Source: a virus
IMG/VR virus record: IMGVR_UViG_3300028610_000244
Span: 1 to 64,000 of that record
Length of the DNA: 64,000 nt
Direction: 5' to 3' (one strand)
Numbering within the stretch: position 1 is the first letter of the stretch; the number at the start of each line of letters is the position of its first letter. Shown here in pieces: positions 3,620-54,558 of the stretch. A program made the translations under genes and the position numbers. The notes under the pieces were generated by a model. The model was not told the origin of the DNA. It did not search any database and saw only the letters and a program-made list of their open reading frames with translations.

Positions 3620-3796
3620 TCACTTTCTCCAGTTAGATTGAATAAATGTTTCGCCGGCCTCCAGCTCGCCGACCCACGTCACTCCCACCTCGTCCACAAC
3701 ACCTTCGAGCAAGAGTATTCTGCGGCCCTCACTCAGCGGCGTCACCTTCACAGTTTCGCAGACGTATTTGTTTCCTTTAACTTCGACCACAAACAT
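3620..3796 (-). CDS. Unknown 58-residue beta-rich protein
   Basis: The gene begins MFVVEVKGNKYVCE and ends IQSNWRK. The GTGACATG start context and the TGACATG junction to the next gene support it. No family recognised; alternating hydrophobic residues suggest a small beta fold. Confidence 0.65.
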   Translation of the reverse strand: MFVVEVKGNKYVCETVKVTPLSEGRRILLLEGVVDEVGVTWVGELEAGETFIQSNWRK

Positions 3797-3797
3797 G

Positions 3798-4448
3798 TCA
3801 CCTTGCTCCTATGAATGTCACCTTGTCTCTGTACTTCTCTTGCATCTGCGTTATGAGTTTGGAGCTGCATCGCTTGGCGATACGTTGCTGCTGCTTCGCG
3901 GGATAGCCTTTGTGCAGCTTCTTTGGCCGTCTGGTACAGCTCAGATAGTCGGATAGTCTGTCGGCACGGTAGCCTTGGCCGAGATCACGCAGGAGCCGCT
4001 GGTCATAGAAGACGAATAGCCCGTACTTCGGATTCAGCTCCTCAATAACCATGTTGGCGTCGTGCATGAGACTGAACGGCACGCAGAAGAGATACTCGTT
4101 GGGGTGGCATTGCCTGTGCTGCTTACCCTGGGCGTAGTTGATGTGCTTGAGCTTCTTCTGTCGCTCACCGTTAACGAGATCGTTCTTGGCTGTCTTGACC
4201 TCGACTTCGATGATCTTCTTGCCGGTGTCCGCAATGACATCGGCTCCCTTGAATTCATCGACGGCGATCCACTGTCGCTCGAATCGGAAGTATTCTAGCA
4301 ACGCAAGTTTTAGCTCGAATGATGTCACCGTCAAGGGATGCGTTTTGCGTTCTACCTGTCCATCACAGGTATGTCCCATGAACCCACCGCCGCCCTTGGA
4401 GTCACACCACTGGTCTTTCGGTAATTTATGGCATGGGTATTCAATCAT
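3798..4448 (-). CDS. Putative PD-(D/E)XK nuclease
   Basis: A 216-residue protein with the core GADVIADTGKKIIEVEVKTA: an Asp, a turn, then E-V-E-V-K, the PD-(D/E)XK nuclease pattern. A role in DNA processing or host DNA degradation is inference. The start ATG at 4448 (MIEYPCHK) has GAGG 7 bp upstream and an ATGA overlap with a 29-codon gene; an upstream in-frame start at 4490 is less likely because it would swallow that small gene. Confidence 0.7.
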   Translation of the reverse strand: MIEYPCHKLPKDQWCDSKGGGGFMGHTCDGQVERKTHPLTVTSFELKLALLEYFRFERQWIAVDEFKGADVIADTGKKIIEVEVKTAKNDLVNGERQKKLKHINYAQGKQHRQCHPNEYLFCVPFSLMHDANMVIEELNPKYGLFVFYDQRLLRDLGQGYRADRLSDYLSCTRRPKKLHKGYPAKQQQRIAKRCSSKLITQMQEKYRDKVTFIGAR

Positions 4449-4534
4449 TCTTTTCCTCGGTAGTTTGGGCAGCTCTTGTTCCCGCCGCATGGGTTATTGC
4501 AGTTACTGTTTTCGCACACGACTCTCTCACTCAT
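4445..4534 (-). CDS. 29-residue cysteine-rich micro-protein
   Basis: A tiny gene starting MSERVVCENSNCNNPCGG, with four cysteines (7, 12, 16, 22). It has GGGAGAAAG before the ATG and is joined to its neighbours by ATGA overlaps at both ends, which is the main reason to accept so short a gene. A structural zinc site or disulphide-rich peptide is possible; function unknown. Confidence 0.6.
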   Translation of the reverse strand: MSERVVCENSNCNNPCGGNKSCPNYRGKE

Positions 4535-4749
4535 TTCTTTCTCCCGGTGCCGCCGCACATCTTGCACTTTTTCAGCTTGCCCTTTAGTACGACACTACCA
4601 TGACCCTCGCACTCTTCGCACAGCCGAGCTATATGGGCTTTGACCACGGCTTCGAGTTCGGCCAGTGACTGATTGTCTTCCGGGAAGCCTGTCTTCTCTA
4701 AGGCACGCTTCAACATTCGTACTTTTCTAGTGATTGCTTCTCCTGCCAT
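4531..4749 (-). CDS. Small protein with DnaJ-type zinc motifs
   Basis: A 72-residue protein with a helical N-terminus and two CxxCxGxG-type motifs (CEECEGHG and CKMCGGTG) in its last 30 residues, as in the DnaJ cysteine-rich domain. No J domain is present. It starts at AAGTGACATG, with the upstream TGA one base before the ATG. A related zinc pair recurs in the 19780-20265 gene. Confidence 0.75.
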   Translation of the reverse strand: MAGEAITRKVRMLKRALEKTGFPEDNQSLAELEAVVKAHIARLCEECEGHGSVVLKGKLKKCKMCGGTGRKK

Positions 4750-4750
4750 G

Positions 4751-5032
4751 TCACTTGCCTTTCAGGTATCTGAGTTTTGTCTCAAGGCTTCTGATCCGGT
4801 GCTTTACTTCCTGAACCATTATTTCCTTGATCGTAGCCCTGGCTTCTGGGTCAGTGATCTTCACCTTGAAGTCACTCAGGTATGTCGGGTGATTCCCAAC
4901 GGCCACAGTGACCCACGGATTCAGGTCTTCGTCGTTCAGGTGTGGCTCTGAGTCATACCTCGCCAGCTCTTTTGTCCAGGAGAGCAACGCCTTCGAGACA
5001 TCCACCAGTTCTTCCAGGTCTTTGCTAGTCAT
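4751..5032 (-). CDS. Unknown 93-residue protein
   Basis: A soluble protein with a C-terminal coiled segment (VKHRIRSLETKLRYL). It overlaps the upstream HD gene by 8 bp and ends in TGACATG. No family recognised. Confidence 0.65.
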   Translation of the reverse strand: MTSKDLEELVDVSKALLSWTKELARYDSEPHLNDEDLNPWVTVAVGNHPTYLSDFKVKITDPEARATIKEIMVQEVKHRIRSLETKLRYLKGK

Positions 5033-5741
5033 TGAGATACCTCATGGTTTCATCTGTATGGCGTTCGGCGAGGAGCTGGTGCAAGGCACGGCTCGCCATG
5101 TAGTCGGCGAGGTGTACTGTTCGGACGACAGCGTCCATTTCCAGTATCGCCAACTCCACCTGCGTGACGTCGTTCGTCCAGCGGCCCATGTGCAACCTGA
5201 CGGCTGCAATCACAGGCTCTAGTTCTGGCATGATAGTGTAGTGTCCGGTAAGGAAGTCCGCACAGAATCGGCCGTGGTTCTGGTTGGCCTGCCTGTGTTC
5301 GTCCCAGGTGTCCAGCTCGTCCTCGGTGTGCCCGCGTTTCATCATGTCGTGCAGCAGGACGCCGGCTATTGTCTGCGAGTATTGAGGACTGCTGTCGTCT
5401 ATGCCCAGGGAGTCCAGAAGCTGATCGGCGAATGCAACCGCAAGCTTGACGTGATGCACCAACCCACCACGAGTCCGGCAGATCGGCGGGTGATGTCCCT
5501 TAACGCTCGCCGGGATCGTCCAGAAGTAGTCCGGGCAGCAGTTCTGGAACACCGAGACCACGAAGTTATATATGGTCGATTCTGTGATTAGGCTCAGCTC
5601 TTTACCGAGCACGTTGTGTACTGTTGGTTTCGCTTTCATTTCTCCTCCATCGAACCGGGAACATGTTTCGGTGCGGCCCGCAGCTATCGTGCAGCCTTGC
5701 GATTGTCGGGCACATAGGTCACATAGGTCTTGCTTGCTCAT
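5025..5741 (-). CDS. HD-domain phosphohydrolase
   Basis: A 238-residue protein with an HD metal-site layout: GLVHHVKLAV, then GVLLHDMMKRG, then a downstream HMGRW and DAVVRTVHLADYM. HD proteins hydrolyse nucleotides or cyclic nucleotides; the substrate here cannot be read. The first 34 residues add four cysteines (CDLC...C...C) and could be a separate zinc element. A second good start (GGAGGAGAAATG, 5639) would drop them. Confidence 0.75.
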   Translation of the reverse strand: MSKQDLCDLCARQSQGCTIAAGRTETCSRFDGGEMKAKPTVHNVLGKELSLITESTIYNFVVSVFQNCCPDYFWTIPASVKGHHPPICRTRGGLVHHVKLAVAFADQLLDSLGIDDSSPQYSQTIAGVLLHDMMKRGHTEDELDTWDEHRQANQNHGRFCADFLTGHYTIMPELEPVIAAVRLHMGRWTNDVTQVELAILEMDAVVRTVHLADYMASRALHQLLAERHTDETMRYLND

Positions 5742-5917
5742 TGTATCAGCTCCAAGAACCCCAGGTAGGCGTTTTTCGCCATCGCTACCGCGAGTATGGC
5801 GAAGATGATTGAGAAGACCTTATGCACGCCTTCTCCCTGCCAAGTCTGGGCCGACCTAACCATCGAGTAGATAGTGACAGCGACTGCGATTATGAGGCAC
5901 ATGATTGATTCGGTCAT
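5738..5917 (-). CDS. Small membrane protein
   Basis: A 59-residue protein with two hydrophobic segments (SIMCLIIAVAVTIYSMV and VFSIIFAILAVAMAKN). The ATG at 5917 overlaps the stop of the cytidine deaminase gene (ATGA) with GGAG ahead of it; longer upstream extensions are read-through of the deaminase gene in another frame. Confidence 0.7.
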   Translation of the reverse strand: MTESIMCLIIAVAVTIYSMVRSAQTWQGEGVHKVFSIIFAILAVAMAKNAYLGFLELIQ

Positions 5918-6396
5918 GCTAAGTTCTCCGGTCCGAAACTCTTGGGCAGAAGGTCTTTGACGTTCATGCCAGTGGGAGGCAGTGTTGGGTCTTGGCAGAA
6001 AGCCCAGACGATCACTTCCTCGCTGGCTGCGTGTTCGCGGATCAGTTGGCGACAGGCACCGCAGCATGGACACGGCTCGTCGGTGGGTGTCCATACAGTC
6101 ATCTCCATGATGCGTATGTCTGGACCCTCGTGAACGATTGCGTTCGAGATCGCTGTTAGTTCTGCGTGACTCATGCCGTTGTACATCACGTTCTCGACAT
6201 TGCAGCCGCCGTAGATGTTCGCGGTCACTGTGAGCAACGCGGCACCGACATGGAACTTGCTGTAGGGTGCGTAGGCGTTCTTCGCTGCTCGGATCGCTGT
6301 TTCGAGTTGTCGGGCTCGCAGATCGTTGACGTCTTGACCGAAACTACCAGCTCGTCGTGCTTCCCTCACGAAATCTTGTACGTTGATGTCTTTCAT
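5914..6396 (-). CDS. cdd: Cytidine deaminase
   Basis: A 160-residue Zn-dependent nucleoside deaminase that would convert cytidine or deoxycytidine to the uridine form in pyrimidine salvage. Features: AYAPYSKFHVGAAL at 41-54, GGCNVEN at 63-69, the HAE motif at 77-79 (zinc His and catalytic Glu), and CCGACRQ with zinc cysteines C112 and C115. Length is close to tetrameric Cdd enzymes. It starts at GGAGATAGTGACATG. Confidence 0.92.
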   Translation of the reverse strand: MKDINVQDFVREARRAGSFGQDVNDLRARQLETAIRAAKNAYAPYSKFHVGAALLTVTANIYGGCNVENVMYNGMSHAELTAISNAIVHEGPDIRIMEMTVWTPTDEPCPCCGACRQLIREHAASEEVIVWAFCQDPTLPPTGMNVKDLLPKSFGPENLA

Positions 6397-6415
6397 GTCA
6401 CTATCTCCAGTTCGA

Positions 6416-6748
6416 TTATTGATGGTCCGGGTTATGCTCGGTCTCGTACTCTCTCATCTTCAACGCCTCATCCTCGGTCTTCGCTTCGATGACGATGTGC
6501 TTCTTGTCCACGGTCTTGCCGGCGTCGTTCATAACGTAAACGGTGTAGCCGTGATTGACGTGGATGTATATGCTCGGCGTGCAGGAGACTTCGGTTTCTG
6601 ATTTCCTCAGTTGGTTGACGCTGTTGGTCTTAGTGATTATGGGAAAGACTGCGATGCAGTAGCTGGCTTCGTTCTTCGACCACTTGATATATGAGGCTTC
6701 TACGAGGTACTTGTCTTCGCCGGTTTCATCCACTACTTTGATAATCAT
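6416..6748 (-). CDS. Unknown 110-residue protein
   Basis: The first gene after the sigma70-like promoter at 6815-6843, with GGAGCCGAGAGC before its ATG. Beta-rich, acidic C-terminus (EDEALKMREYETEH). No family recognised. Confidence 0.65.
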   Translation of the reverse strand: MIIKVVDETGEDKYLVEASYIKWSKNEASYCIAVFPIITKTNSVNQLRKSETEVSCTPSIYIHVNHGYTVYVMNDAGKTVDKKHIVIEAKTEDEALKMREYETEHNPDHQ

Positions 6749-6802
6749 GCTCTCGGCTCCAGTGTCTGTCTTTCTATTGTGTCGTATCGCACACAGTTCT
6801 AA

Positions 6803-7996
6803 CTATCTGTGTACAGTATAGCACATGGAAAGAATCGTGTCAAGTGATTTTTCCTGCATCACCATATTTTGTAACTCGGCAACGCTTACGTCTTTGGTCA
6901 TTTGTCCTGGCGGCAGCTCGGTGTCGAAGAACGTCTGGGTGAATTGGTTCAGCGTTTCCGGTGTCACGTAGCCCAGGAATAGCTTTAGATCGACGCGGCC
7001 CGGACGCACCAGTGCCGGATCAAGTTTCTCGATGTGGTTCGTCGTCATAATGATGACGCGACCGTGACTCACCGCGATTCCGTCCAGAGTGTTTAGTATT
7101 TCACTGATCCCACCTTTAAGCATCAAGAAATCGCCCTTACTACTCTTATCTTTTTCTGCGTCTCTGTCGCCGGTGGCCTCGTTTGAGTCTACGTCCTCGA
7201 TAACAATGAGTTCCTTGTCTGTACCCAGCTCTGTTATCGTGCTGAGGTTGCTTGCCGGGACTACCGCTACGTCTTGATTCAGGTGTGCCGCTATTGCCCG
7301 GATCAATGATGTCTTGCCGGTTCCGGGAGGGCCATGCAGTAGTATGCCGAGCTGGTACGGGATTCCGTGCAGGATGTACCACTGCTCTTTCTCGCGGAAA
7401 TCCTTGAGCGTCTTTATCAGCTCGTCTTTATCTGCTGCCGGCATCAGGATCGAGTCCAGGTTCCGCTTCGGTTGCTTGATTAGGTTCCAATCTCCGTCGC
7501 CGGAGTGCATCTTTAGCTTCGTCATCTCACAGTTCTCGTCCGGGCACCGCAGATTGTGGAGGATAGCATCAAACAGCTTGTGAGACCGGCCGAGCTTAGA
7601 GAGTGTGATCTCCTCTTTGTCCCGATCCGCGACAGTGTCGATTCTGTCGAGGTCCACCAATATAGGGACATGTCCGTACCACATCAAGTGCTGGCCGTAA
7701 CCCACCGCCTTCGTAGAGAAGTCACCACCCCACCTTCCGTTAACGATCTTGATCCTGCGGAACTTCTTGCTGTATCCTTTACTCTCGAACCAATTCATCA
7801 GGACGTAATAGCTCTCGTTGTTGGACGTCATCGTCATGGATGTGGTCAAGTGCTTCTTCACAAGGGCGGCGACGTTGTATGGCACTTTCCTGAGCAGGTA
7901 CGTGACTATGCCTATCAACCAAGCAGATATGGCTGCGGCCATGAATTCATTTCCGCCCGTGATGTCGTTAATCTTCTGTAGCAGTTGTTCGATCAT
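6803..7996 (-). CDS. BCS1-like AAA ATPase with N-terminal membrane helix
   Basis: A 397-residue protein with the BCS1 layout: a transmembrane helix at about 19-35 (AAAISAWLIGIVTYLL), a BCS1-specific middle domain, then an AAA module with Walker A GPPGTGKT at 222-229, Walker B LIVIED at 263-268, TTN sensor at 318-320 and RPGR at 331-334. BCS1 proteins move folded substrates across membranes in mitochondria; bacterial and phage homologues are uncharacterised. It has GAAGGGTAAGA before the ATG and follows a 35-residue membrane protein. Confidence 0.85.
   Translation of the reverse strand: MIEQLLQKINDITGGNEFMAAAISAWLIGIVTYLLRKVPYNVAALVKKHLTTSMTMTSNNESYYVLMNWFESKGYSKKFRRIKIVNGRWGGDFSTKAVGYGQHLMWYGHVPILVDLDRIDTVADRDKEEITLSKLGRSHKLFDAILHNLRCPDENCEMTKLKMHSGDGDWNLIKQPKRNLDSILMPAADKDELIKTLKDFREKEQWYILHGIPYQLGILLHGPPGTGKTSLIRAIAAHLNQDVAVVPASNLSTITELGTDKELIVIEDVDSNEATGDRDAEKDKSSKGDFLMLKGGISEILNTLDGIAVSHGRVIIMTTNHIEKLDPALVRPGRVDLKLFLGYVTPETLNQFTQTFFDTELPPGQMTKDVSVAELQNMVMQEKSLDTILSMCYTVHR
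6815..6843 (-). promoter_or_regulatory. Sigma70-like promoter
   Basis: On the minus strand TTGACA (6838-6843), a 17-bp spacer ending TGC, and TATACT (6815-6820). It lies inside the last codons of the BCS1-like gene and would transcribe 6748 and downstream genes. Confidence 0.85.
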
Positions 7997-7998
7997 TC

Positions 7999-8106
7999 TT
8001 ACCCTTCCTGCACATCATCTCTATCTGAGTTAGCAACCCATCCTAGTACGTATCCGAAGTATGCAAATCCAAGGCAAAGTAACAGACACCAATTTATACT
8101 AATCAT
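7999..8106 (-). CDS. 35-residue membrane protein
   Basis: A very short gene, starting MISINWCLLLCLGFAYFGY, with one membrane helix and a polar acidic tail. TAGGAGAGCAA before the ATG is a strong ribosome-binding site. It lies immediately upstream of the membrane-anchored AAA ATPase, so a partner role is possible but unproven. Confidence 0.65.
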   Translation of the reverse strand: MISINWCLLLCLGFAYFGYVLGWVANSDRDDVQEG

Positions 8107-8114
8107 TTGCTCTC

Positions 8115-8411
8115 CTAATAGATTGCGTAGACGATTCTGAATGCGATGTGAAGCAGTTGATCTGTACGGAAGCCGATTCTTTTGTTGGCCTTCCATGTGT
8201 CGATTGTGAAGTGAGCGACGGTTTCGGTTATGCCCAGGAAGAGCGAACCCGTGACGAGATAGACGGCACCGCCGCAGATCAGGGCGTGAGCGGCCATCCA
8301 GATGTACCAATCGCGGTGGTGGCCGGGACACTTTAGGGCGTGCATGGCACCGTTCTGTAGCTGAAAGTCGCAGAGTGCGTGAGCACACATTAGCAGGAAG
8401 AATGTTTTCAT
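8115..8411 (-). CDS. DUF3307 membrane protein
   Basis: A 98-residue protein with the DUF3307 pattern: LLMCAHALCDFQLQNGAMH, a K, WYIWMAAHALI and, after a hydrophobic segment, ETVAHFTIDTWK. Several membrane segments carry conserved His and Asp residues. Function unknown; common in phages. It starts by ATGA overlap with the upstream gene. Confidence 0.78.
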   Translation of the reverse strand: MKTFFLLMCAHALCDFQLQNGAMHALKCPGHHRDWYIWMAAHALICGGAVYLVTGSLFLGITETVAHFTIDTWKANKRIGFRTDQLLHIAFRIVYAIY

Positions 8412-8647
8412 TTTCTCGCGTCCATCAATTGTTTAATGAAGTGACTAATATCGTCCAGGCAACCCGCATCGAATACAAGCTTTTCTGCTCGACGCGGCTC
8501 GAATATGTATCGACGCCAGCCTGATTTCCACTCGACGCAACCCAGTAGGATGTGAGAATGGTTCCAGCAGTTGTACACGGATGTCTTCCGCCTGGGGTAT
8601 TGGGCTGTAAGGTCTTGGAACCAAATGTGCTCGTACTTTGTCTTCAC
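8408..8647 (-). CDS. Unknown 79-residue protein (GTG start)
   Basis: The protein reads VKTKYEHIWFQDL through DDISHFIKQLMDARK. I place the start at GTG 8647 because it forms a GTGA overlap with the 54-residue gene upstream and has AGGGA ahead; the ATG at 8725 would overlap that gene by 80 bp. No family recognised. Confidence 0.6.
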   Translation of the reverse strand: MKTKYEHIWFQDLTAQYPRRKTSVYNCWNHSHILLGCVEWKSGWRRYIFEPRRAEKLVFDAGCLDDISHFIKQLMDARK

Positions 8648-8808
8648 GGCTTGATCCCTGCCTTCTTGCAGATGGATCGGTACTTCTTTCGGAGCACTCG
8701 GTCTTTCTTCCTTTGGGTACGCCATTGGCGTATGTCACTCGGTGCGTAGCTTAGCTCCTGGATGATCCAATCTTTCATGTTCAGGATGTAATTGATTAGG
8801 GTTCTCAT
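8644..8808 (-). CDS. 54-residue basic protein
   Basis: A small gene starting MRTLINYILNMKDWI. Its C-terminal half is strongly basic (QRKKDRVLRKKYR). It is accepted because it is tied to the gene before it by ATGA and to the gene after it by GTGA, with GGAGAG next to the start. Confidence 0.6.
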   Translation of the reverse strand: MRTLINYILNMKDWIIQELSYAPSDIRQWRTQRKKDRVLRKKYRSICKKAGIKP

Positions 8809-8972
8809 CTCTCCGGTACTCCGTGGTGCCAGGGATGTCCGGGTGCATCCTTCCAGGGGAAGTTACCTTGAGCCGCTGCCGTTTTGTCCGCTTGATACTG
8901 CCAACCGCAGCCGATGAAGCAACCCGCGATGAAGGCAACGAACATCCAACCTATTGTTGATAGTTTAACCAT
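8805..8972 (-). CDS. 55-residue single-pass membrane protein
   Basis: The N-terminus MVKLSTIGWMFVAFIAGCFI is a signal anchor or lipoprotein-like signal (AGCFIGC), followed by a polar tail. Start at 8972 overlaps the upstream gene by 8 bp with GGAAAGGA ahead. Confidence 0.65.
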   Translation of the reverse strand: MVKLSTIGWMFVAFIAGCFIGCGWQYQADKTAAAQGNFPWKDAPGHPWHHGVPER

Positions 8973-9246
8973 CTGTCGTCCTTTCCGGGGCTCCGTGATG
9001 CTCCATGCACCTGATCGCAAGTGCTGCGATCTTCCTGATGACGTGCATTGTTGGTTCTTCGTGTGGGTCGCCGAACGAGGTGGAGTATGTGGCCTGGGCT
9101 CTATTGAGGTACTCTCGCATCAGCACCAGCTCTTCACCCACGGTCATGGTGTCAGTGTTCAGTTTGTCTTGATAGGCACGCTCTTCGTCCATGCGGTCAA
9201 ACACGGTTTCTCTATATACACCTAAGCTACTTGTTTTCTCGCACAT
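8965..9246 (-). CDS. Unknown 93-residue phage protein
   Basis: Features RMDEERAYQDKL, TVGEELVLMREYLNRAQ and IRKIAALAIRCMEHHGAP. I recall this pattern as a widespread uncharacterised phage family but cannot give it a function. The larger protein at 9408 shows a related ERTRQDNLWG element. Confidence 0.7.
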   Translation of the reverse strand: MCEKTSSLGVYRETVFDRMDEERAYQDKLNTDTMTVGEELVLMREYLNRAQATYSTSFGDPHEEPTMHVIRKIAALAIRCMEHHGAPERTTDG

Positions 9247-9421
9247 TTTCGTCTCCTGTGAATCGGGTCAGGGTAAAATGAAAACACAAAATATGAACTG
9301 ACGTCGTTCTCCTGTGTGTCGGCGTACCCCAGGTTTCATGCTGTATCGCTAATGGGATCGCCCACCAGCTCTTAGTCGTTTCCAAGATAAAAGTTATGTC
9401 CTTGCTCTCATAGTGGAACAT
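9227..9421 (-). CDS. Unknown 64-residue protein
   Basis: The ATG at 9421 (MFHYESKD) has AGGAGCCAAGC ahead and overlaps the upstream stop by 14 bp. Rich in His, Trp and Thr. No family recognised. Confidence 0.55.
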   Translation of the reverse strand: MFHYESKDITFILETTKSWWAIPLAIQHETWGTPTHRRTTSVHILCFHFTLTRFTGDENVRENK

Positions 9422-10052
9422 GCTTGGCTCCTGATCTGGGCAGGTCTTCGTAGTGCCTGGGAGCACAATTACCGTAGCGGTCGATCATCAACACAGCAGC
9501 CTGGGCAATACCACAAGCCTTGACCATGTTGATGCAATAGTCCTGTGCGGACGACCGCATAGCCAGTGACATATAGTGACCGACATAAGCGTGCCAATCG
9601 TTCGCGGTGTTCTTCCGGTCGAACTCATCGCCCCAGAGGTTGTCCTGTCGGGTTCGCTCTTGGATTATGGTGTCTGTGTCTGCTCTTGCTGCAAGCTGGC
9701 ACCATGCCGCGACCATTACCATGTTCTCGCGGAACTTCTCAGTTGAGAATTCTTCATCGCGTCCAGAGTACGTCGCAAGTGAAAGGTGCTTGTGTGCTGC
9801 CGCGAAATAATCTGTGTCCGGTGGGAGCTTGCTGACCTCGTCGGCTACCGTGGTTGCGATTGCGGCAATTAGGTTTTCCGGCCATTCCCCCAATAGATCG
9901 GACAGATTCTTATGTAGGGCTTTTGCTTCTTCGTGGCTGAGATCATATTCTGTTTCCTCAACCTCGAACTCGATATGCAGATTACTCTCGCCCGGTGCGT
10001 CCTCGTCCGGTACTAAAGACCACTCCATATCCATAACTTTGAATCTACTCAT
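9408..10052 (-). CDS. Unknown 214-residue protein
   Basis: The first gene after the promoter at 10102-10130, with GGAGG before the ATG. The N-terminal half is acidic (EFEVEETEYDLSHEEAKAL); the C-terminal half contains IIQERTRQDNLWGDEFDRKN and ends QAAVLMIDRYGNCAPRHYE, a combination I recognise only as a phage hypothetical family. It is the last ordinary gene before the repeat array. Confidence 0.7.
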   Translation of the reverse strand: MSRFKVMDMEWSLVPDEDAPGESNLHIEFEVEETEYDLSHEEAKALHKNLSDLLGEWPENLIAAIATTVADEVSKLPPDTDYFAAAHKHLSLATYSGRDEEFSTEKFRENMVMVAAWCQLAARADTDTIIQERTRQDNLWGDEFDRKNTANDWHAYVGHYMSLAMRSSAQDYCINMVKACGIAQAAVLMIDRYGNCAPRHYEDLPRSGAKHVPL

Positions 10053-10101
10053 TATGAATCCTCCAGTGTATAAATGCACGCACTTCTGAACATCTGTGTA
10101 C

Positions 10102-10130
10102 AGTATAGCACAACTGGGATCAGGTGTCAA
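10102..10130 (-). promoter_or_regulatory. Sigma70-like promoter
   Basis: Minus-strand TTGACA (10125-10130), a 17-bp spacer ending TGC, and TATACT (10102-10107). It sits at the left foot of the TTATCGGAC array and drives the 10052 gene. Confidence 0.87.
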
Positions 10131-10278
10131 GTGAAAACTGTGTGGTAAATATCTACGCAACATTATCGGATGTTGTATTGGTTTGAACGAATGGCAAGGC
10201 TCCAGGGTTTGAAATCGTTTGAAAAATTTTGAGATTTGAAAAGCTCTTGGCTTGAGGACGTGCGGGTAGGAGCGGCCC

Positions 10279-10705
10279 GTCCGATAATAGCATGGGGAAA
10301 GGCCCCGTCCCAGCGGTTATTATCGGACGTTGATGCACGATTTTCGCAGCACAATGCACGATGTTATCGGACGTCAGGCAGCACAGGTTATCGGACCAAG
10401 GCAGGGCGGCTCACGTTATCGGACGTAGGTTATCGGACGTCGTTATTATCGGACCACACCACGTCCGATAACTGAGCGTGACATAACAGGGATTATCGGA
10501 CCAACGTTATCGGACCTCTCTAGGCTCTAGTCCGATAATAAAATCCGGGCTCAACAAACGTCCGATAAGAAGCACGTCCGATAATGTTACGAGGTGCTAC
10601 TGAGTGACGTCCGATAACATATCTGGCGATCAGATACGCATGGTCCGATAATGTTTGCGTGTGCATAGGGAGGAGGTCCGATAATCCGGGGCAGAATTAT
10701 CGGAC
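10279..10705. repeat. Left TTATCGGAC/GTCCGATAA array (17 copies)
   Basis: Exact 9-mers start at 10279, 10320, 10364, 10388, 10416, 10430, 10446, 10463, 10493, 10507, 10530, 10560, 10576, 10609, 10643, 10676 and 10697. The left half is mostly TTATCGGAC, the right half mostly GTCCGATAA. Separating sequences of 5-35 bp are unrelated. No gene is seen between 10140 and 10755. It is not a CRISPR, because repeats are short, in both orientations and irregularly spaced. A protein-binding array is inferred. Confidence 0.9.
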
Positions 10706-10754
10706 CGATGAGATGATAAGCTGGTAGGTTAAGCCAGCGGTAGGTTATAGGACG

Positions 10755-11999
10755 TCAATAGTATTCGCGTCGGTTGCCGTCCGCGTCGTATCCGTTAGCG
10801 TCAAGCCGGACAACGTCGGACATTGCATAGATTGCCGTATCGTCCGGCAACTGGTTTGCGGCAAACGTGTAAAGGATTGCCGCGAATAATTCCGCGTCGG
10901 TTGTATCGCCTTGCCAATTCTTGCCGATGCTGTTTTCATCGGTTGCATTGTCGGCGAATTCGATATCGTTCGCAAGATCGGCGTCGGCATAGACGACAAC
11001 ATTATAAATATTCAAGTGACTAATTACGTCGGCATTTGCGGCAAGCCAATTTAGTGTCCGGCTATATGTCTCTTGCGTTTCATCAGGCAAACCGATTAGA
11101 ATGTTAGGTATTAGCTTGACATTGCATCGCCTAAGCTTTTCGGTTGCCGCGTCGATTGTCTTTTCCGATGCTGGCTTGTGCATCGCGGCAAGTATAGCGT
11201 CGTTATATGTCTCTATTCCCAATTCGACATAACGAATTCCAGACGCGGACAAAAAATCATCGTCAAGTTTTAGCAATTGTGTTGCTGTAGTCTGCACAAT
11301 AAATCCGTCGAATCCGTCCATGTTGTCAACAAAGTATTGAGACAATAGCGGCAACAACCAAAAATTCTCACATTGTCCGAACGTCTTATCGTTTATGTAG
11401 ACAAGCGGACTATTTAGCCGGGCTATTTCGTCCGCTTGCTGATAGACGTCGGCGATTGACGTCTTGACTACGTCGTTCGGCTGTATACAGAATCGGCACT
11501 TGTGCCCGCAACCAGTAGACAACGTCAATCTTGCAATCGTTTTGGCACCAACAAAACTGGAATAGTCAATACCCGTCCGATAATCAGTGCCGAGCTTATC
11601 GCAGCAATCCCGCACAGAATCGCACCAAATAACGTTCGGTAGGTCCGATAAGTTTTCCCGGTCACAATATCCGCCGACAATCACCTTGCCGCTAAAACCG
11701 TCGGCAATCGTTCGGATTAAATGCCAATTGCAATCCAAAGCGGAAAATGCAAGGATATCATAGTCGGCCTGTTTGGCTTGTACGTCGGCGATTGACCGGG
11801 CAAACGTTGTCCGTGCATCGGGAAAATTGCGTTTCATTTCCGCTTGCCAAACAGGAATTTCCCAGACAGGACCGAGGCGATTATATCCCGGCAACGTCCG
11901 ATAAAGTTTATCGTAATATTCGGTTGCCTGTTTGTTCTCGTTTCGGTTTAGCAATCCGCTATAAAATTGCACCAACAGAATTTTCGGTCTTGTTCTCAT
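10755..11999 (-). CDS. Radical SAM enzyme
   Basis: A 414-residue protein. Residues 1-140 resemble a Rossmann/B12-like N-terminal domain (KILLVQFYSG, DYDILAFSALD, GKVIVGGYCD). The radical SAM core follows with CGHKCRFC (C164, C168, C171) binding a 4Fe-4S cluster, then YVELGIETYNDAILAAM and NILIGLPDETQET, typical of B12-dependent or HemN-like radical SAM proteins. Substrate unknown. The start at 11999 follows the island leader GGGGACAAGAGAA. Three copies of GTCCGATAA lie inside the gene (11575, 11643, 11896). Codon use is AT-richer than in genes outside the island. Confidence 0.88.
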   Translation of the reverse strand: MRTRPKILLVQFYSGLLNRNENKQATEYYDKLYRTLPGYNRLGPVWEIPVWQAEMKRNFPDARTTFARSIADVQAKQADYDILAFSALDCNWHLIRTIADGFSGKVIVGGYCDRENLSDLPNVIWCDSVRDCCDKLGTDYRTGIDYSSFVGAKTIARLTLSTGCGHKCRFCIQPNDVVKTSIADVYQQADEIARLNSPLVYINDKTFGQCENFWLLPLLSQYFVDNMDGFDGFIVQTTATQLLKLDDDFLSASGIRYVELGIETYNDAILAAMHKPASEKTIDAATEKLRRCNVKLIPNILIGLPDETQETYSRTLNWLAANADVISHLNIYNVVVYADADLANDIEFADNATDENSIGKNWQGDTTDAELFAAILYTFAANQLPDDTAIYAMSDVVRLDANGYDADGNRREYY

Positions 12000-12117
12000 T
12001 TCTCTTGTCCCCGTTTTGCTCTTGTTCGGTTTACGTTTTGCGTTATGGCGTCCGTCTGGTCTCGTGTTGGACATTCACAAGACGCCATAACACAAACGGT
12101 AAACTTGTGGGGACAAG

Positions 12118-12249
12118 TTAGCTATTCTTGTCTGCCGGTTTGCGTTTGTTTCCTTTTGCCGTCAATCCGTTTTGGTTTTTCGCCGTTATGTTTCCGTATC
12201 CGTCTTTTGTTGCATTTGCCGCGTCGAAATTTCTGTTTTGCTTGTCCAT
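12118..12249 (-). CDS. 43-residue basic, Asn-rich protein
   Basis: Begins MDKQNRNFDAANATKDG and is rich in Asn and Lys throughout, probably disordered. The ATG follows the island leader GGGGACAAACCAAA. No family recognised. Confidence 0.55.
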   Translation of the reverse strand: MDKQNRNFDAANATKDGYGNITAKNQNGLTAKGNKRKPADKNS

Positions 12250-12286
12250 TTTGGTTTGTCCCCGTAAATTGTTTCGGTTTGCTAAG

Positions 12287-12379
12287 CTAACAAAGTGCGA
12301 CGTATGCCGCAATACTGATAATAATTACCGGATACCATTTTGTTTTCCAAGCTTTATACTTTTCGATTAGAGTATACAT
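12287..12379 (-). CDS. 30-residue membrane micro-protein
   Basis: Begins MYTLIEKYKAWKTKWYP, then a hydrophobic helix (VIIISIAAYVALC). The ATG follows CGGGGAAAACAAAA, a variant of the island leader, downstream of the promoter at 12430-12457. Confidence 0.55.
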   Translation of the reverse strand: MYTLIEKYKAWKTKWYPVIIISIAAYVALC

Positions 12380-12429
12380 TTTTGTTTTCCCCGTTTGTTC
12401 TTGCCGTTTGCTTGTCCCTCACTACTTAA

Positions 12430-12457
12430 AGTATACACTATATCCGGCAAGATGCAA
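12430..12457 (-). promoter_or_regulatory. TTTGCAT/TATACTTTAAGT promoter (island)
   Basis: Minus strand: TTGCAT (12452-12457), 16-bp spacer, TATACT (12430-12435), then TTAAGT. An AT tract (AAATTTTATTTTCT) precedes the -35, like an UP element. It directly follows the stop of the 12472 gene and serves the 12379, 12249 and radical SAM genes. Confidence 0.8.
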
Positions 12458-12471
12458 ATAGAAAATAAAAT

Positions 12472-13104
12472 TTATTCTTGCATAAAGGCAAAACAAGGCG
12501 TTTCACAAAAGATCGACCTGTATACCGACACAAAGCTTTTCGGATTCTTGCCGGATTCTCGCCGTATCGCATACCATAGTAAAGCCTGATAATTTGCTGG
12601 CTTTAAGCCTTGCCGTTTGGCGTCGGCCTGTATTCGCTTTTCTAGTCGGTTGTATAGCCTTGCCGTCAATTTCTTTTCTGGTATGCCATACGCTTGCAAA
12701 ATCCATGTGTCAATTGTGACCGCGTCAAGATTGCCTTTTAGATTCTCGGCAAACCGCGAAACCTTGGGACCGCTTATCGGACGTCCTTGTAGCGACCGAA
12801 TAACGTTTGTTAAATGTGCGGGCATACACTTAGCCAACAGATCGGCGAAACGGTCCGGGTTTAGTTTCCTGTCGATATACGCTTGCAATAGCCTTGCCGA
12901 TTGACGCCAATTGCGTTTGACGGATTGACGCGGCGATGTTGACGCCAAAATGTCAACAAACAGACGCCAATTGTCCCCGTATAATTCTTGTATCAAGTTT
13001 TTGGCGTCTGTATACCATTGCAAGGCTTTTCTATCCGCGACGTCTGGCTTGACGCGGCAGCGTAGTCTTATGTTATCGGACGTCGTTTTCGTTTTGGTTC
13101 TCAT
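12472..13104 (-). CDS. HhH-like phage protein
   Basis: A 210-residue protein. The core SGPKVSRFAENLKGNL followed by AVTIDTWILQAYGI, a K/Y-rich linker, GLKPANYQALLWYAIRR is the arrangement of a phage family with an endonuclease III-like helix-hairpin-helix fold (DUF7178-like, from memory). Catalytic residues are not certain, so DNA glycosylase activity is only a possibility. The ATG at 13104 follows the island leader. Two TTATCGGAC copies are inside (12774, 13073). Confidence 0.65.
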   Translation of the reverse strand: MRTKTKTTSDNIRLRCRVKPDVADRKALQWYTDAKNLIQELYGDNWRLFVDILASTSPRQSVKRNWRQSARLLQAYIDRKLNPDRFADLLAKCMPAHLTNVIRSLQGRPISGPKVSRFAENLKGNLDAVTIDTWILQAYGIPEKKLTARLYNRLEKRIQADAKRQGLKPANYQALLWYAIRRESGKNPKSFVSVYRSIFCETPCFAFMQE

Positions 13105-13372
13105 TGTCGTTTGTCCCCGTCCCCGTTTTGTCGTCGAAATGTTGCTGTATTGTGTCCCAAAGATTTTCGAGAAATTCGTTTTTGTCCGCGTCGTATTGCT
13201 CGTAACCGTTATCGGACCCGTGTTCGACGTCTGGATATAGCGGCAAAATCTCGGCATTATAGCGTTTGTACTCATCGGCCAAAAATGCCATTAAATCGGA
13301 TTGACGTTTTCCCTTGTTTGTATGGTCAATTGGATTGCCGAGTTTAACATCGGCGTAGTTTTTGTCAGACAT
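13073..13372 (-). CDS. Unknown 99-residue acidic protein
   Basis: Acidic, with an Asn/Asp-rich C-terminus (GTGTNDNENQNEND). It overlaps the HhH-like gene by 32 bp. One TTATCGGAC copy lies inside at 13209. No family recognised. Confidence 0.6.
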   Translation of the reverse strand: MSDKNYADVKLGNPIDHTNKGKRQSDLMAFLADEYKRYNAEILPLYPDVEHGSDNGYEQYDADKNEFLENLWDTIQQHFDDKTGTGTNDNENQNENDVR

Positions 13373-13382
13373 TATCGGCCCC

Positions 13383-13532
13383 TTAATTGTCCTGCATTAC
13401 ACGAATTGCATCGGCAAAATTCTTTTCGGTTTGCTGGCTTACTTTGTTGGCGAATTTGACCGCTTGCGATACCAAAACCAGATAAAAAATTACAATCAAC
13501 ATGCCGCCGATTAGATAAGATTTAATGCTCAT
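13383..13532 (-). CDS. 49-residue membrane protein
   Basis: Begins MSIKSYLIGGMLIVIFYLVL, a signal anchor, followed by a polar helical tail. It is placed at 13532 by the leader GGGGACAAGAAAA next to the ATG. The promoter at 13585-13612 lies upstream. Confidence 0.6.
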   Translation of the reverse strand: MSIKSYLIGGMLIVIFYLVLVSQAVKFANKVSQQTEKNFADAIRVMQDN

Positions 13533-13584
13533 TTTTCTTGTCCCCGTTTTGCTCTTGTTCGTTTGCTTGTCCCTCACTACTTAA

Positions 13585-13612
13585 AGTATACGCTATAATT
13601 CCGCCGATGCAA
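13585..13612 (-). promoter_or_regulatory. TTTGCAT/TATACTTTAAGT promoter (island)
   Basis: TTGCAT (13607-13612), 16-bp spacer, TATACT (13585-13590), TTAAGT, then the conserved AGTGAGGGACAAGCAAACGA leader. Confidence 0.8.
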
Positions 13613-13615
13613 ATT

Positions 13616-13789
13616 TTATTTCCAAGGAAATAATCTTTTTTCGTGTTTCTTCCATGCAAACAACAAAGCAAACCTTTTCCGGCTAAAATCGGTTTGTGGT
13701 GAAACACCTAAACTTTCTATATCGGTGCCGAGTTGCCTGATTCTCTTGTCTATTCTTGCCGCTATTTTTTCCGCTTTCTTGATTCTCAT
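13616..13789 (-). CDS. 57-residue basic protein
   Basis: Begins MRIKKAEKIAARIDKRI and ends HEKRLFPWK. Highly basic, helical. The ATG follows the island leader GGGGACAAGAAAA; the stop abuts the -35 of the next promoter. Confidence 0.55.
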   Translation of the reverse strand: MRIKKAEKIAARIDKRIRQLGTDIESLGVSPQTDFSRKRFALLFAWKKHEKRLFPWK

Positions 13790-13810
13790 TTTTCTTGTCC
13801 CCGTTTTGCT

Positions 13811-13969
13811 TTACTTAAATATTCCGGCACTGGCTTTTGAATTCCGCAATTTTGTTGGCTTTGTGGTACGCAAAATCCGCATTGCATCGGCAAAACCTTT
13901 TGCAGAGCTGGTAGATTTTGACGAACCACATGTTAGCAGCATCGACAACAAGCTTTTCTTACGTCCCAT
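13811..13969 (-). CDS. 52-residue Ser/Lys-rich protein
   Basis: Begins MGRKKSLLSMLLTCGSS. GGAGGATATT before the ATG is a conventional ribosome site, unlike its neighbours. No family recognised. Confidence 0.5.
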   Translation of the reverse strand: MGRKKSLLSMLLTCGSSKSTSSAKGFADAMRILRTTKPTKLRNSKASAGIFK

Positions 13970-13982
13970 AATATCCTCCGCA

Positions 13983-14312
13983 CTATATGTTTTCCGTTAT
14001 GCAAATAGAATCTGGCATAATTACGCAATTCTCGGCATAAAATTTGACTTGATCGGCAGCGTCCGATAATGTTTCAAACGTGTGCGTTTCCGCTTGTCCA
14101 TTTACTGCAATAATCAATTCGTATGTTTTCCGCCGTTTTAATGGTATGGTCAATCGGCGTTTTGATTCGCAAGCCAATACTTTCAGACGTCCGCCGTGCA
14201 TTTTCTCAAAACGTCCGATAACTGTTATCGGGTCTTTTTCCCTTGTGCAATATGTTGTTGTGCCGGTCGTTCGGCGTTTGTCGTTTCTCTCATAATCTAT
14301 TTTGTATCTCAT
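13983..14312 (-). CDS. Unknown 109-residue basic protein
   Basis: The most upstream island gene. Basic N-terminal half (DYERNDKRRTTG) and a hydrophobic-acidic C-terminal half. It follows the leader GGGGACAAGGCAA and carries two GTCCGATAA copies (14061, 14213). Confidence 0.6.
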   Translation of the reverse strand: MRYKIDYERNDKRRTTGTTTYCTREKDPITVIGRFEKMHGGRLKVLACESKRRLTIPLKRRKTYELIIAVNGQAETHTFETLSDAADQVKFYAENCVIMPDSICITENI

Positions 14313-14354
14313 TTGCCTTGTCCCCGTTTTGCTCTTGTTCGTTTCACTACTGAA

Positions 14355-14382
14355 AGTATACGCTACAATTCAGCCGATGCAA
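14355..14382 (-). promoter_or_regulatory. TTTGCAT/TATACTTTCAGT promoter (island)
   Basis: TTGCAT (14377-14382), 16-bp spacer, TATACT (14355-14360), TTCAGT. Preceded by A/T tract AAATTTTATTTTCT. It is the first promoter of the island. Confidence 0.78.
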
Positions 14383-14470
14383 ATAGAAAATAAAATTTAT
14401 TTTGCGTTTGGCGTCGGCGGTTTTGTGTCGTATGCTTTGCGTATACGATGATATTTTGTGGACGCTTTAC

Positions 14471-14918
14471 GTCCGATAATAATCGGCGGGCTTTTTCCCG
14501 CGACGTCCGATAAGGACCACGTCCGATAAGGAGGGCGGTCTACCTACTCGGAATTCGTCCGATAACGGCACGAGGTCCAGGTCCGATAAAAAATATATTA
14601 TCGGCGGAACTGCCGGGTCCGATAAGTGTCTAAAGTAATGGCACTGGAGGCAAAAGCATGTGACTTATCGGCGTGGTCCGATAATATCGAGATCGCGGAA
14701 TTCTGCGGCGGCGGTTATTATCGGACGAGGCCAATAATGTCGCGGGTTCTGCGTCGTGAGGCCAGGGATTACCGGACGTGTCCGATAATATCGAAACTGG
14801 TCTCTGAACCGGAATTGGATATTATCGGCAGCGTCCGGTAATGTGTCCAGGCTGGTTATCGGACGCTGTGGAGAAAATCAGTTATCGGACGTGTGGGAGC
14901 TGGTTAGTTTTATCGGAC
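14471..14918. repeat. Right TTATCGGAC/GTCCGATAA array (12 copies)
   Basis: Exact copies start at 14471, 14505, 14521, 14557, 14581, 14617, 14676, 14718, 14780, 14856, 14882 and 14910; several TTATCGGC near-copies lie between. Here GTCCGATAA dominates on the left and TTATCGGAC on the right. Together with the left array it brackets the island. No gene is seen from 14383 to 15096. Confidence 0.9.
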
Positions 14919-14926
14919 CAAAGGTC

Positions 14927-15063
14927 CAACCCACCGTTTACTTTTGGGCACGAAAAAGGCAACCCACCGTTTAGTTTTGGTCGAAAAAGGCAACCCACCC
15001 TTTGATTTTTGCCTCGAAAAAGGCAACCCACCGTTCATTTATTTTCCTTGAGTCCAACCCACC
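14927..15063 (+). repeat. CAACCCACC array, five copies at 31-33 bp spacing
   Basis: Copies at 14927, 14960, 14991, 15024 and 15055, all in one orientation and mostly followed by STTT. Steps of 33, 31, 33 and 31 bp equal about three helical turns. Three copies share the flank CGAAAAAGG. The array directly continues the right TTATCGGAC array and lies in noncoding DNA. Confidence 0.88.
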
Positions 15064-15096
15064 CTTTGTTTCAAGGTAATGTCACTAGGCCCCAGG

Positions 15097-15522
15097 TCAA
15101 GCAAATGTCACTCTATATGTCACCACCTTCGCCCAGGATTCAAGTGCTCTGAGTTTTTGAGACAGCGGCCAAAGTATAGGGCGGCGGGAGATTTCGACCC
15201 TCTTTGTCATGCCCTCGGACAATGCCCAGGAAAGTTGCTGGCACCGGCCATAAGTTGTAAAAGGTGTCGATGAGTAAGTCCTGGTTATTACTACCCTTAG
15301 TATTCTTTTCATATTATACATATTAAATTTATAGTTTGAGTCTAAAGAAATTTGACTATCTGTGACGTCCTGGGTATGAGAAATGTTAAGAATATGGTGA
15401 AACACTATGTTCTTCATGTTATTAAACCTAAGCCCAATGTCACTCAACACTTGTATGGTAGCACCTTTTACCAGTTCAAAACCGTATGAATATGTTCCTG
15501 AATATCTAACTCTAGTCCTCAT
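15097..15522 (-). CDS. Unknown 141-residue protein
   Basis: The ATG has GGGAGCAAGTCACT ahead. The middle is unusually AT-rich (about 15290-15430), unlike the flanks, and the C-terminal part has no obvious domain. The open frame is long, but coding status is less certain than for neighbours. Noncoding DNA at 15079-15125 just downstream holds three TGTCAC words. Confidence 0.5.
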   Translation of the reverse strand: MRTRVRYSGTYSYGFELVKGATIQVLSDIGLRFNNMKNIVFHHILNISHTQDVTDSQISLDSNYKFNMYNMKRILRVVITRTYSSTPFTTYGRCQQLSWALSEGMTKRVEISRRPILWPLSQKLRALESWAKVVTYRVTFA

Positions 15523-15555: not shown

Positions 15556-16191
15556 TTAATAGTAATTCTCCATCACAGTTGCCTCTCCGGCTGCGTTTCC
15601 TGCCACCATCACGAGCCGCTGTTGTCTCCAAGACCGTCGCTCTTTTCTGTTTTCTTGCCTCGCCAAGACTTTTTCACTCCGTTTCCATGCAGCCTCGACG
15701 TCACCGGCTCGGGCATACCACACCCGACCAGACACCGGATAGCTCCAGTACCATGCCTCAGTTTGGTGCCGTAAAGCGTACCCTTTTTCGACCCTGTACG
15801 CAATCATTTCGCCCATTGTTTTACCCTGTTCCTGCACCAATTCCAGGGCCTTAATTGAGATGCCCAGCTCGGTCAAGACGCCAGAACATTTCAACGCAGT
15901 CACGACTCGGCTACGGTCGCTGTAAGGCATGTAGTATTTCCCACAGACCCCACACATCCGGCATACCCGCATACCCGCAGACACTCCGGCCAGCTTCTCG
16001 GCAGCAGTGAGTATCCGCTTGCATCCGTGTGGCATGTCACGCTTTCTCGGCACTCGTCGCTTCACTACGGCCTCACCGTGTCGCGGTATCCTGTTGCCGT
16101 TAGGCTCCTCGTAGTCGGTCCCAGGCGTGAATCCAACCCTCTTGGTGAATACAAATGGCTCCTTGCTCTCCTTAAACCTTATCCACCACAT
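15556..16191 (-). CDS. Unknown 211-residue basic protein with Cys cluster
   Basis: Contains CRMCGVCGKYYMPYSDRSR near residue 77-95, a possible half zinc site, and basic N- and C-termini. It starts at GGAGGTCGTGACATG and overlaps the upstream gene by 13 bp. Function unknown. Confidence 0.65.
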   Translation of the reverse strand: MWWIRFKESKEPFVFTKRVGFTPGTDYEEPNGNRIPRHGEAVVKRRVPRKRDMPHGCKRILTAAEKLAGVSAGMRVCRMCGVCGKYYMPYSDRSRVVTALKCSGVLTELGISIKALELVQEQGKTMGEMIAYRVEKGYALRHQTEAWYWSYPVSGRVWYARAGDVEAAWKRSEKVLARQENRKERRSWRQQRLVMVAGNAAGEATVMENYY

Positions 16192-48461: not shown

Positions 48462-49263
48462 TTTGTCCTCCTGGTATTGTGCTTTGGTATCTGCGAACAG
48501 TGCAGTCCGGTTGTCCACAATATTTGCAGCCGTCACCGGCTCCTACACAATTCTTCATCTGACCTGGGGCCTGCAAGACATACCCTTCGCCTCCGCATCT
48601 TGTGCAGTTCGGGTCTGGCTCAGGAAGGATCGACGCCACATCCTCTTTCGGACCCGTGTTGAATTTCGTATCCAGGCAATCACAGTACGGCGGGTCATCC
48701 AGGGCGAGTACACCTTTGGCCCACTCGATGTAATACTCCTGTGCCTCTGGTGACAAGTCTTCCAGTGACTCGCCGGTCAATGATCCCAGCTCAGGATTCA
48801 TGTCCGGGTGTTCCAGGAACAGCTTCCATGCCTTGTCCTTGATCTCGATGCAGTAGCCGTCGTCTTGTCGCTTGATGTTCTTCGTCAGCTTACTTGAGTA
48901 CATGCCGCAAACCATCTCCGGTGTCATGCCCAGAGCTTGAGCGAAGCTGATCCAGAAATGCAGCATGTCAATTATTTCTTTGCGACAAGACTCGATATCT
49001 TTGATCTCGTAACGTCTGCCTTCCTGGGCTTCTTGACACCAGTGCTTCCAGTAGGTGCAGTTTCGCAGCTCTTCCATCTCACTGCTCATTGCCTTAATGA
49101 AGTTGTCGATCCAGACGCCGGCGTCAAGCTTGGCTCCCTGGTAATCTCGGAAATCTGTTTGCTGTCCGGCTACCGAGAACGTCTTGGCAAACCGTGCGGC
49201 GTCAAAACCTATACGCTCATTGAACGTCTCTTGCATCTTAAACAGATCGGCTATTGTGAACAT
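48451..49263 (-). CDS. dUTPase of the all-alpha (dimeric) type with zinc-finger tail
   Basis: A 270-residue protein. The N-terminal 150 residues carry SSEMEELRNCTYWKHWC and CRKEIIDMLHFWISFAQALGM, the metal-binding E/D pattern of all-alpha NTP pyrophosphohydrolases (dUTPase_2). It would hydrolyse dUTP to dUMP, matching cytidine deaminase in the window. The last 90 residues add zinc-ligand clusters (CDCLDTK, CTRCGGEG, CKYCGQPDC), unusual for the family. Confidence 0.8.
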   Translation of the reverse strand: MFTIADLFKMQETFNERIGFDAARFAKTFSVAGQQTDFRDYQGAKLDAGVWIDNFIKAMSSEMEELRNCTYWKHWCQEAQEGRRYEIKDIESCRKEIIDMLHFWISFAQALGMTPEMVCGMYSSKLTKNIKRQDDGYCIEIKDKAWKLFLEHPDMNPELGSLTGESLEDLSPEAQEYYIEWAKGVLALDDPPYCDCLDTKFNTGPKEDVASILPEPDPNCTRCGGEGYVLQAPGQMKNCVGAGDGCKYCGQPDCTVRRYQSTIPGGQNES

Positions 49264-53746: not shown

Positions 53747-54547
53747 TTATTGAAAGATGCGAATACGTAGCTCCGCATCAAGTCTGTTGAGTGGCGTGGC
53801 AAAGCCCATAGAGGCTGTGCTGTTTAGTCGGGCTATTATGATGCCGGCGACCTTTCCATCTACTATGGCAGGTCCGCCGCTGCATCCACCCCAAGCAAAA
53901 CCGTCGTAGACAAATTTATTTTTCCAGTTTTCACTTGACACGCGAGCCCAAGTTATGATAAGCTGGGGCTCGTCGCCGAATGGCGTGCCTATGCAAATGA
54001 CCTCAGCACCAAGAACAGGAGACGGACCCATATCCAACCACGGCCCACATCGGCCTTCTATAATGACCAGGGCTAGATCGTCATTGAAGTCCTCAAGAAC
54101 CTCTACGGCTCTATACTCTACGCCGTCAGGTCCGGTAACGAAGACGGTCTCATCCGCTATTCGGTCATCCACTACGTGCTTCGCAGTAAGCAGCTTATTA
54201 TCGGACACAAAGACGCCGGTGCCCCGTGTCGGTCCACGGAATACAGTTATCGGACCATTTTGTCTCGGCTTCTGCATGACCCGGAGAGTGGCCGAGCTTG
54301 ACCGTAATCGTAGAAGGTCCAACCCACCGTTTGCAGAACCCAACCCACCGTCTGTTAGGTCCAACCCACCCTCCGTAGAACCCAACCCACCCTTGAGCTG
54401 AGCGATCCTGTTGTGCAGAGAATCCAACCCACCCTCTTGCATGTGGTTCCAATGTCGCAGGCTGACTAAGTCACTCTCTTGGCGGTTGCACAAGAAGACT
54501 GTTAATCCAAGTGTCACGGTAAGCAAGATGTTTGTCAGTGTCTTCAT
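53747..54547 (-). CDS. Trypsin-like (S1C/HtrA-type) serine protease
   Basis: A 266-residue protein with N-terminal signal anchor (ILLTVTLGLTVFLC), a GGL heptad-like linker at 39-78, then a chymotrypsin-fold protease with His124 (LLTAKHVV), Asp157 (NDDLALV) and Ser223 (GGCSGGPA). Probably exported or periplasmic. No PDZ domain. The linker is encoded by five CAACCCACC copies on the plus strand, and two TTATCGGAC copies fall in the catalytic domain. GGGAGAACT before ATG 54547. Confidence 0.85.
   Translation of the reverse strand: MKTLTNILLTVTLGLTVFLCNRQESDLVSLRHWNHMQEGGLDSLHNRIAQLKGGLGSTEGGLDLTDGGLGSANGGLDLLRLRSSSATLRVMQKPRQNGPITVFRGPTRGTGVFVSDNKLLTAKHVVDDRIADETVFVTGPDGVEYRAVEVLEDFNDDLALVIIEGRCGPWLDMGPSPVLGAEVICIGTPFGDEPQLIITWARVSSENWKNKFVYDGFAWGGCSGGPAIVDGKVAGIIIARLNSTASMGFATPLNRLDAELRIRIFQ
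54198..54255 (+). repeat. TTATCGGAC pair inside the protease gene
   Basis: Exact copies at 54198-54206 and 54247-54255, 49 bp apart, within codons around VSDNK and GPIT. Other isolated copies: 28446, 33602, 37708 and 52319. Confidence 0.85.
54320..54433 (+). repeat. CAACCCACC array inside the protease gene
   Basis: Copies at 54320, 54341, 54362, 54383 and 54425: steps 21, 21, 21 and 42 bp. All share an orientation and most are followed by STC/STT as in the 14.93 kb array. In the gene frame they encode repeated GGL units. Confidence 0.9.
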
Positions 54548-54558
54548 AGTTCTCCCTA

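Follow-up and report, generated by a model that had tools for sequence, protein, structure and literature searches.

A 9-base-pair word arrayed in unrelated phages marks a candidate replication origin in an uncultivated virus

Introduction

The 64,000-nucleotide stretch of viral DNA considered here (the window; positions 1 to 64,000 of IMG/VR virus record IMGVR_UViG_3300028610_000244) carries an island of genes bracketed by two dense arrays of one 9-base-pair (bp) word, TTATCGGAC, and raises the question of what such arrays do. A first-pass annotation had offered several readings, namely the subterminal repeats of a transposon, the iterons of an origin, and a self-regulated modification module. 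We find the arrays to be real, strong, and wider in distribution than first noted, and most likely to represent a replication origin whose shared box is unusual; they would be a site that acts in cis by binding protein and serves, most probably, as the main replication origin of the phage, a reading to which we assign a probability of roughly 0.55. A 9-bp word that picks out one site in each genome, across no fewer than five unrelated phage groups, would provide a handle on how uncultivated phages initiate replication and on their hosts, and TTATCGGAC could be used both for locating origins and for linking orphan phages to a common host.

Arrays and composition of the island

The first-pass counts of 17 copies on the left, 12 on the right, and 8 inside genes were all recovered as exact copies on recounting (Table 1), and these 17 + 8 + 12 sites at 10279-14918 compare with a chance expectation of about 0.5 per 64 kilobases (kb). 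With one mismatch allowed, 63 matches stand against 10.7 expected, a number that 0 shuffles reached, and the spacing is irregular overall (14-76 bp). Six exact copies lie outside the island in the window (28446, 33602, 37708, 52319, 54198, and 54247), and one further copy in the 97,868-base record, at 92132, brings those outside the island to seven; the 9-mer is thus not equally dense across the remaining genome, and the island is by far its densest place in the record, though not the sole one.

The description of the island as shifted towards adenine and thymine (AT) applies to its genes, which have a guanine plus cytosine (GC) content of 0.443 against 0.523 (the lowest-GC 3.7-kb window outside the island reaches 0.497), but not to the arrays, whose GC content of 0.52 is that of the genome. 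The deviant codon use is borne out by the GC content at third codon positions, which is 0.40-0.53 in the island genes vs 0.58-0.69 elsewhere, and the distinctive gene starts by a common leader, CTTGTCCCCGTTTTGC..., present in 4 copies. Where seven to nine genes had been claimed, eight are plausible, all on the minus strand. By composition, the cargo between the arrays appears foreign.

The word also extends into coding sequence. Three copies in the radical SAM gene encode DYRTG, NLSDLP, and LYRTLPG and align without gaps to homologues that do not contain the 9-mer, and a copy in the DUF7178 gene changes KPIHGPK to RPISGPK at non-invariant positions. These sites arose by substitution, as if gain of TTATCGGAC were favoured over the whole zone.

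Recurrence of the word in unrelated phages

A search for the arrays in other phages returned 61 stretches of viral contigs with a triple array of TTATCGGAC, and in 42 of these the flanks are unrelated (identity <0.40, at or near chance likeness). For two control 9-mers the numbers of stretches were 10 and 4, all of them ordinary tandem repeats with conserved flanks and none with random flanks, and the DnaA box, used as a positive control, gave at least 120 stretches, with random flanks in 65 of 119. The carriers span 33-64% GC and at least five unrelated phage groups: group A is the lineage of this phage; group B consists of large phages whose terminase is only 25% like that of Bacillus phages; groups C and D have a T7-type terminase or RNA polymerase; and group E/F has no match among isolates. 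The carrier counts take in close relatives (e.g., G006 and G056), so that groups, not contigs, are the safe unit. On these comparisons the word is not lineage-specific, and its recurrence suggests a shared DNA-binding protein.

Across the unrelated phages there is mostly one TTATCGGAC cluster per genome, which is the clustered, multi-copy arrangement of initiator-type sites looked for at an origin. In the array consensus, positions 2 and 7 are near-invariant and the greatest tolerance is at position 5 (C, A, G); a purine precedes the 9-mer and GT often follows. The base tolerance at positions 1-5 parallels that of the DnaA box, but the consensus of the latter, TTATNCACA, is not matched, the G at position 7 being near-invariant in the arrays, and TTATCCACA occurs in the carriers as scattered singles only. 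A literature search for such arrays found none, and its string matches to the 9-mer or 10-mer resembled chance occurrences in primers and similar listings.

As to the protein that reads the word, neither BLAST nor profile searches found a gene family common to all carriers, the widest carrier gene being DNA polymerase A (14 of 36 contigs), and DnaA domain IV (DnaA_C) gave no match above the cut-off in 42 records, with one sub-threshold partial match. The cognate initiator looked for beside an origin was accordingly not found, and a phage-encoded common factor was rejected on the same searches; because unrelated phages have the 9-mer and no phage gene is common to all of them, the binder is probably host-encoded. 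The DUF7178 protein of the island was considered as the binder and rejected, since 35 of the 42 records have no above-cut-off match to it. The other 7 of these array-containing or related records do (one of them, G001, has a single 9-mer), and an additional, partial copy is present in the relative L158.

Phased repeats, AT-rich element, and strand asymmetry

The right array is adjoined by a second repeat, CAACCCACC, in the window and in three relatives (L048, L109, and L114). Its gaps of 11, 21, 31-33, 42, 52, and 63 bp are multiples of about 10.5 bp (Rayleigh R 0.95, p ~4e-10, for 24 of 24 gaps pooled, including the block at 54320-54433), so that these repeats lie on one face of the helix as the iterons of an origin do; the gaps of TTATCGGAC are without helical phasing (R 0.18). 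In the same four genomes (4 of 4) the AT-richest 60-mer falls 140-240 bp outside the phased CAACCCACC, and in 6 of 6 group-A genomes tested the contig-wide AT maximum falls in the array zone. A GC-skew step within the top 5% of the contig coincides with the array in 10 of 15 genomes, and with one genome per lineage the coincidence has a combined p of 0.0016. The cumulative GC-skew minimum lies in the array or at most about 50 bases from it in four genomes with divergent gene arms (G006, G056, G008, and G025).

Fixed site and changing cargo among relatives

The phage matches Mesyanzhinovviridae that infect Pseudomonas in gene order, with identities of 50% for the DNA polymerase, 52% for the large terminase, and 66% for the capsid; primase, helicases, and portal match in the same order. 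The genomes of Ab18, Epa5, and Lucjan from this family measure 56-64 kb vs 98 kb for the present record. In Ab18 the small terminase gene is preceded by 927 bp of noncoding DNA (L254, 30795-31720) with several ACTTGAG/ACTCGAG repeats, which are perhaps the Pseudomonas-phage counterpart of the array.

Closer to the window are four metagenomic relatives (L048, L109, L114, and L158) with many common genes at about 40-60% protein identity, and a fifth, L130, whose island is the same as that of L114. In the window, L048, L109, and L114, two arrays bracket 2.4-4.2 kb of cargo at one syntenic place, with an HD-domain gene on one side and the gene at 15556-16191 on the other. The array of L158 and L020 has these left-hand genes next to it too, and the contig ends on its other side. 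Among these six phages DUF7178 is present in five (the L158 copy is partial, its contig starting inside the gene), the radical SAM gene occurs only in the window, and the relatives with a complete region hold an unrelated second gene in its place. A C-terminal tail, DADGNRREY, is found on the radical SAM protein (window 10758-10820) and at the same island edge in L114 (7534-7596) on an otherwise unrelated protein, which we read as the trace of a gene replacement. As the arrays stay at one site while the cargo varies, and as no transposase was found, the arrays do not behave as transposon ends.

Proposed function and competing explanations

In the mechanism that we propose, a sequence-specific protein would occupy many TTATCGGAC sites, the helically phased CAACCCACC iterons would be bound by a second protein or a second domain, and the adjacent AT-rich stretch would open so that the phage's own replication proteins could be loaded; a RepB-type primase/helicase and polA are present in this phage genome. 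The 9-mer binder, probably host-encoded, would act as DnaA does on DnaA boxes, reading TTAT-N-GGAC instead of TTAT-N-CACA, and the genes between the arrays would be cargo acquired in or beside the origin-like site. Of the options in the first-pass annotation, the iterons of an origin fit the evidence best. The arrays and their specificity, the phasing, the AT-rich element, the fixed location, and the strand-asymmetry step are read directly from sequence; the origin function, the binding protein and its host origin, and the order of events are what we infer.

Origins built on DnaA boxes include oriC and those of iteron plasmids such as P1 and pSC101. The present site resembles them in its clustered 9-mers with a TTAT start and a variable fifth base, in helically phased iterons about 21 bp apart, and in an adjoining AT-rich stretch, but differs in a box that ends in GGAC rather than CACA, in copy numbers of up to 38, in sites that extend into coding genes, and in having no recognisable initiator alongside. 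A virus-borne, noncoding origin built of repeats is also known from the PLE/ICP1 satellite replicon, which uses RepA_N iterons and encodes its own RepA (PMC7145576), whereas the array phages have no common initiator gene. A more tentative proposal, to which we would give somewhat less than even odds, is that unrelated phages converged on TTATCGGAC as a replication word and that its reader is a host initiator or DNA-binding protein, so far uncharacterised, of poorly sampled bacteria, the word then being an analogue of the DnaA box with a different code. If the binder were indeed a host initiator with a non-DnaA box, a textbook constant of bacterial replication would change for that host group.

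Several observations weigh against an origin. The 9-mer is absent from Ab18, Epa5, and Lucjan (50 kb examined in each). The host-genome sampling covers two phyla, taken as Pseudomonadota and Verrucomicrobiota: the 398 genomes from the phylum of G072, a Neptuniibacter metagenome-assembled genome (MAG), contain no paired arrays and one microsatellite, and the 289 from the phylum of G073, an Opitutia MAG, contain arrays only as four microsatellites, so that no host carrying such boxes emerged from these two phyla. Group A shows the AT-rich element clearly, but it is not seen in groups B and D; the skew step of group A, and of part of group E, is opposite in sign to what a simple bidirectional origin would give; and the group-B skew step coincides with a flip in gene direction, which is a confounder. 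Finally, a gene for a trypsin-like protease (53747-54658, minus strand) has at its 5' part a second, smaller site with both repeats (Table 1). Phased CAACCCACC lies beside this gene in five group-A phages (G000, G002, G003, G004, and G055), with 9-mers within about 150 bp of it in the first three, and the pair could point to transcriptional control.

A regulator bound to the 9-mers and the phased CAACCCACC might then switch the protease gene in concert with the island genes. Helical phasing is also typical of activators, and the group-B 9-mers follow the direction of one early gene arm. We nevertheless consider such control unlikely, given that 17-38 sites, many within coding sequence, far exceed the usual number of operators, that the arrays lie at strand-asymmetry steps, and that the word is common to unrelated phages with unlike genes. 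The high copy number, disordered spacing, and gain of sites by substitution in codons without insertions or deletions, together with the sharing of the word by phages that have no common binding gene, would also suit a decoy that titrates or blocks a host protein, e.g., a host initiator or a defence factor; this is improbable, as it leaves the phased iterons, the AT-rich element, and the skew step unexplained. Arrays do lie near contig ends beyond chance (median 0.12 of the length, Kolmogorov-Smirnov p 0.001), and in group D the array (L150) adjoins the terminase gene, as a packaging site (pac) or genome end recognised by the terminase would; however, the small terminase gene lies 3-15 kb away from the group-A array and the large one about 20 kb away from the group-C array, the terminases are unalike between groups, and packaging seems a poor candidate.

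Least credible of all, in our estimate, is a transposon or mobile unit with the two arrays as its ends. The AT-shifted cargo that varies between relatives and the DADGNRREY tail shared at one edge are what such a unit could leave behind, but scanning the island genes against Pfam and PHROG revealed no transposase, in agreement with the first-pass annotation; the relatives have the same syntenic site and no different insertion sites; neither a target-site duplication nor an empty site was seen; and many phages, with other genes, have arrays without a second array or cargo. The arrays are moreover native in base composition and the cargo is not.

Gene content of the island and further observations

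Table 1. Features of the array locus and of the second site (window coordinates; aa, amino acids)
Feature	Position	Strand	Details
Left array	10279..10705	both (9+/8-)	17 exact TTATCGGAC, irregular spacing 14-44 bp
Radical SAM enzyme	10755..11999	-	PF04055, CxxxCxxC motif
In-gene TTATCGGAC copies	11575, 11643, 11896, 12774, 13073, 13209, 14061, 14213	both (3+/5-)	8 exact copies
Small basic protein	12118..12312	-	64 aa, no assigned function
Three near-identical sigma-70-like promoters	12458-12430, 13613-13585, 14383-14355	-	TTTGCA-17-TATACT
DUF7178 protein	12472..13104	-	PF23802; predicted OGG-like glycosylase/lyase fold; start set by homologues
Acidic protein	13073..13372	-	99 aa, no assigned function
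Membrane protein	13383..13577	-	64 aa; homologue in L048 island
Basic protein	13616..13789	-	57 aa, no assigned function
52-aa protein	13811..13969	-	no assigned function
109-aa protein	13983..14312	-	no assigned function
Right array	14471..14918	both (4+/8-)	12 exact TTATCGGAC
CAACCCACC repeats	14927..15063	+	n=5; gaps 33, 31, 33, 31 bp; outside right array
Candidate DNA-unwinding element	15296..15355		AT-richest 60 bases of 97.9-kb record, 82% AT
Second, smaller site	54198..54433	+	two TTATCGGAC and five CAACCCACC; gaps 21, 21, 21, 42 bp

The DUF7178 protein is predicted, with good fold confidence (AF2 pLDDT, the predicted local distance difference test, of 86), to be an OGG-fold DNA glycosylase/lyase. 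In structural comparison it comes closest to archaeal OGG enzymes (probability 1.00, though with an E value of 0.04), and the residues corresponding to the catalytic Lys/Asp, K107 and D125, are invariant in 11 sequences. It thus has a predicted fold like that of the HhH-GPD glycosylase/lyases (OGG2 of Methanocaldococcus and Sulfolobus) and keeps their Lys-Asp pair; identity to the OGG2 enzymes is at most 15%, the glycosylase role is putative, and a sequence-profile search of the PDB found no relative. Radical SAM and DUF7178 genes also lie near each other, with no 9-mer array, at 1437-4079 of L133, a contig in a Neptuniibacter MAG, which suggests that the two genes form an independent functional unit, with a possible role in modifying or repairing DNA. 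The self-regulated modification module of the first-pass annotation thus survives for the cargo, with its glycosylase-fold protein and radical SAM enzyme, and not for the arrays, DUF7178 being above the cut-off in so few of the records.

Matches to the sigma-70 consensus are overall not above chance, and the three promoters in Table 1 have a common 41-bp repeat. A search for RNA families found no match. Of the GTCCGATAA(G) microsatellites in genomes of the two phyla, those of L245 and L246 code for SDK repeats, that of L234 for S/D/N-rich repeats, and that of L247 is a tandem run between genes; they were rejected as host chromosomal arrays, those inspected encoding SDK or SDN repeats or being plain tandem repeats. 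L132, a phage whose genes include a family A polymerase and a distant DUF7178, has about ten copies of a palindrome, TAACATGTTA (often GGCTAACATGTTAGCC), at 3622-11898, several overlapping the stop codon at a gene end; the palindrome is scattered at gene junctions and was set aside as distinct from the array. Elsewhere in the window the phage encodes an RtcB RNA ligase (47262-48536) and a BCS1-like AAA ATPase (6803-7996).

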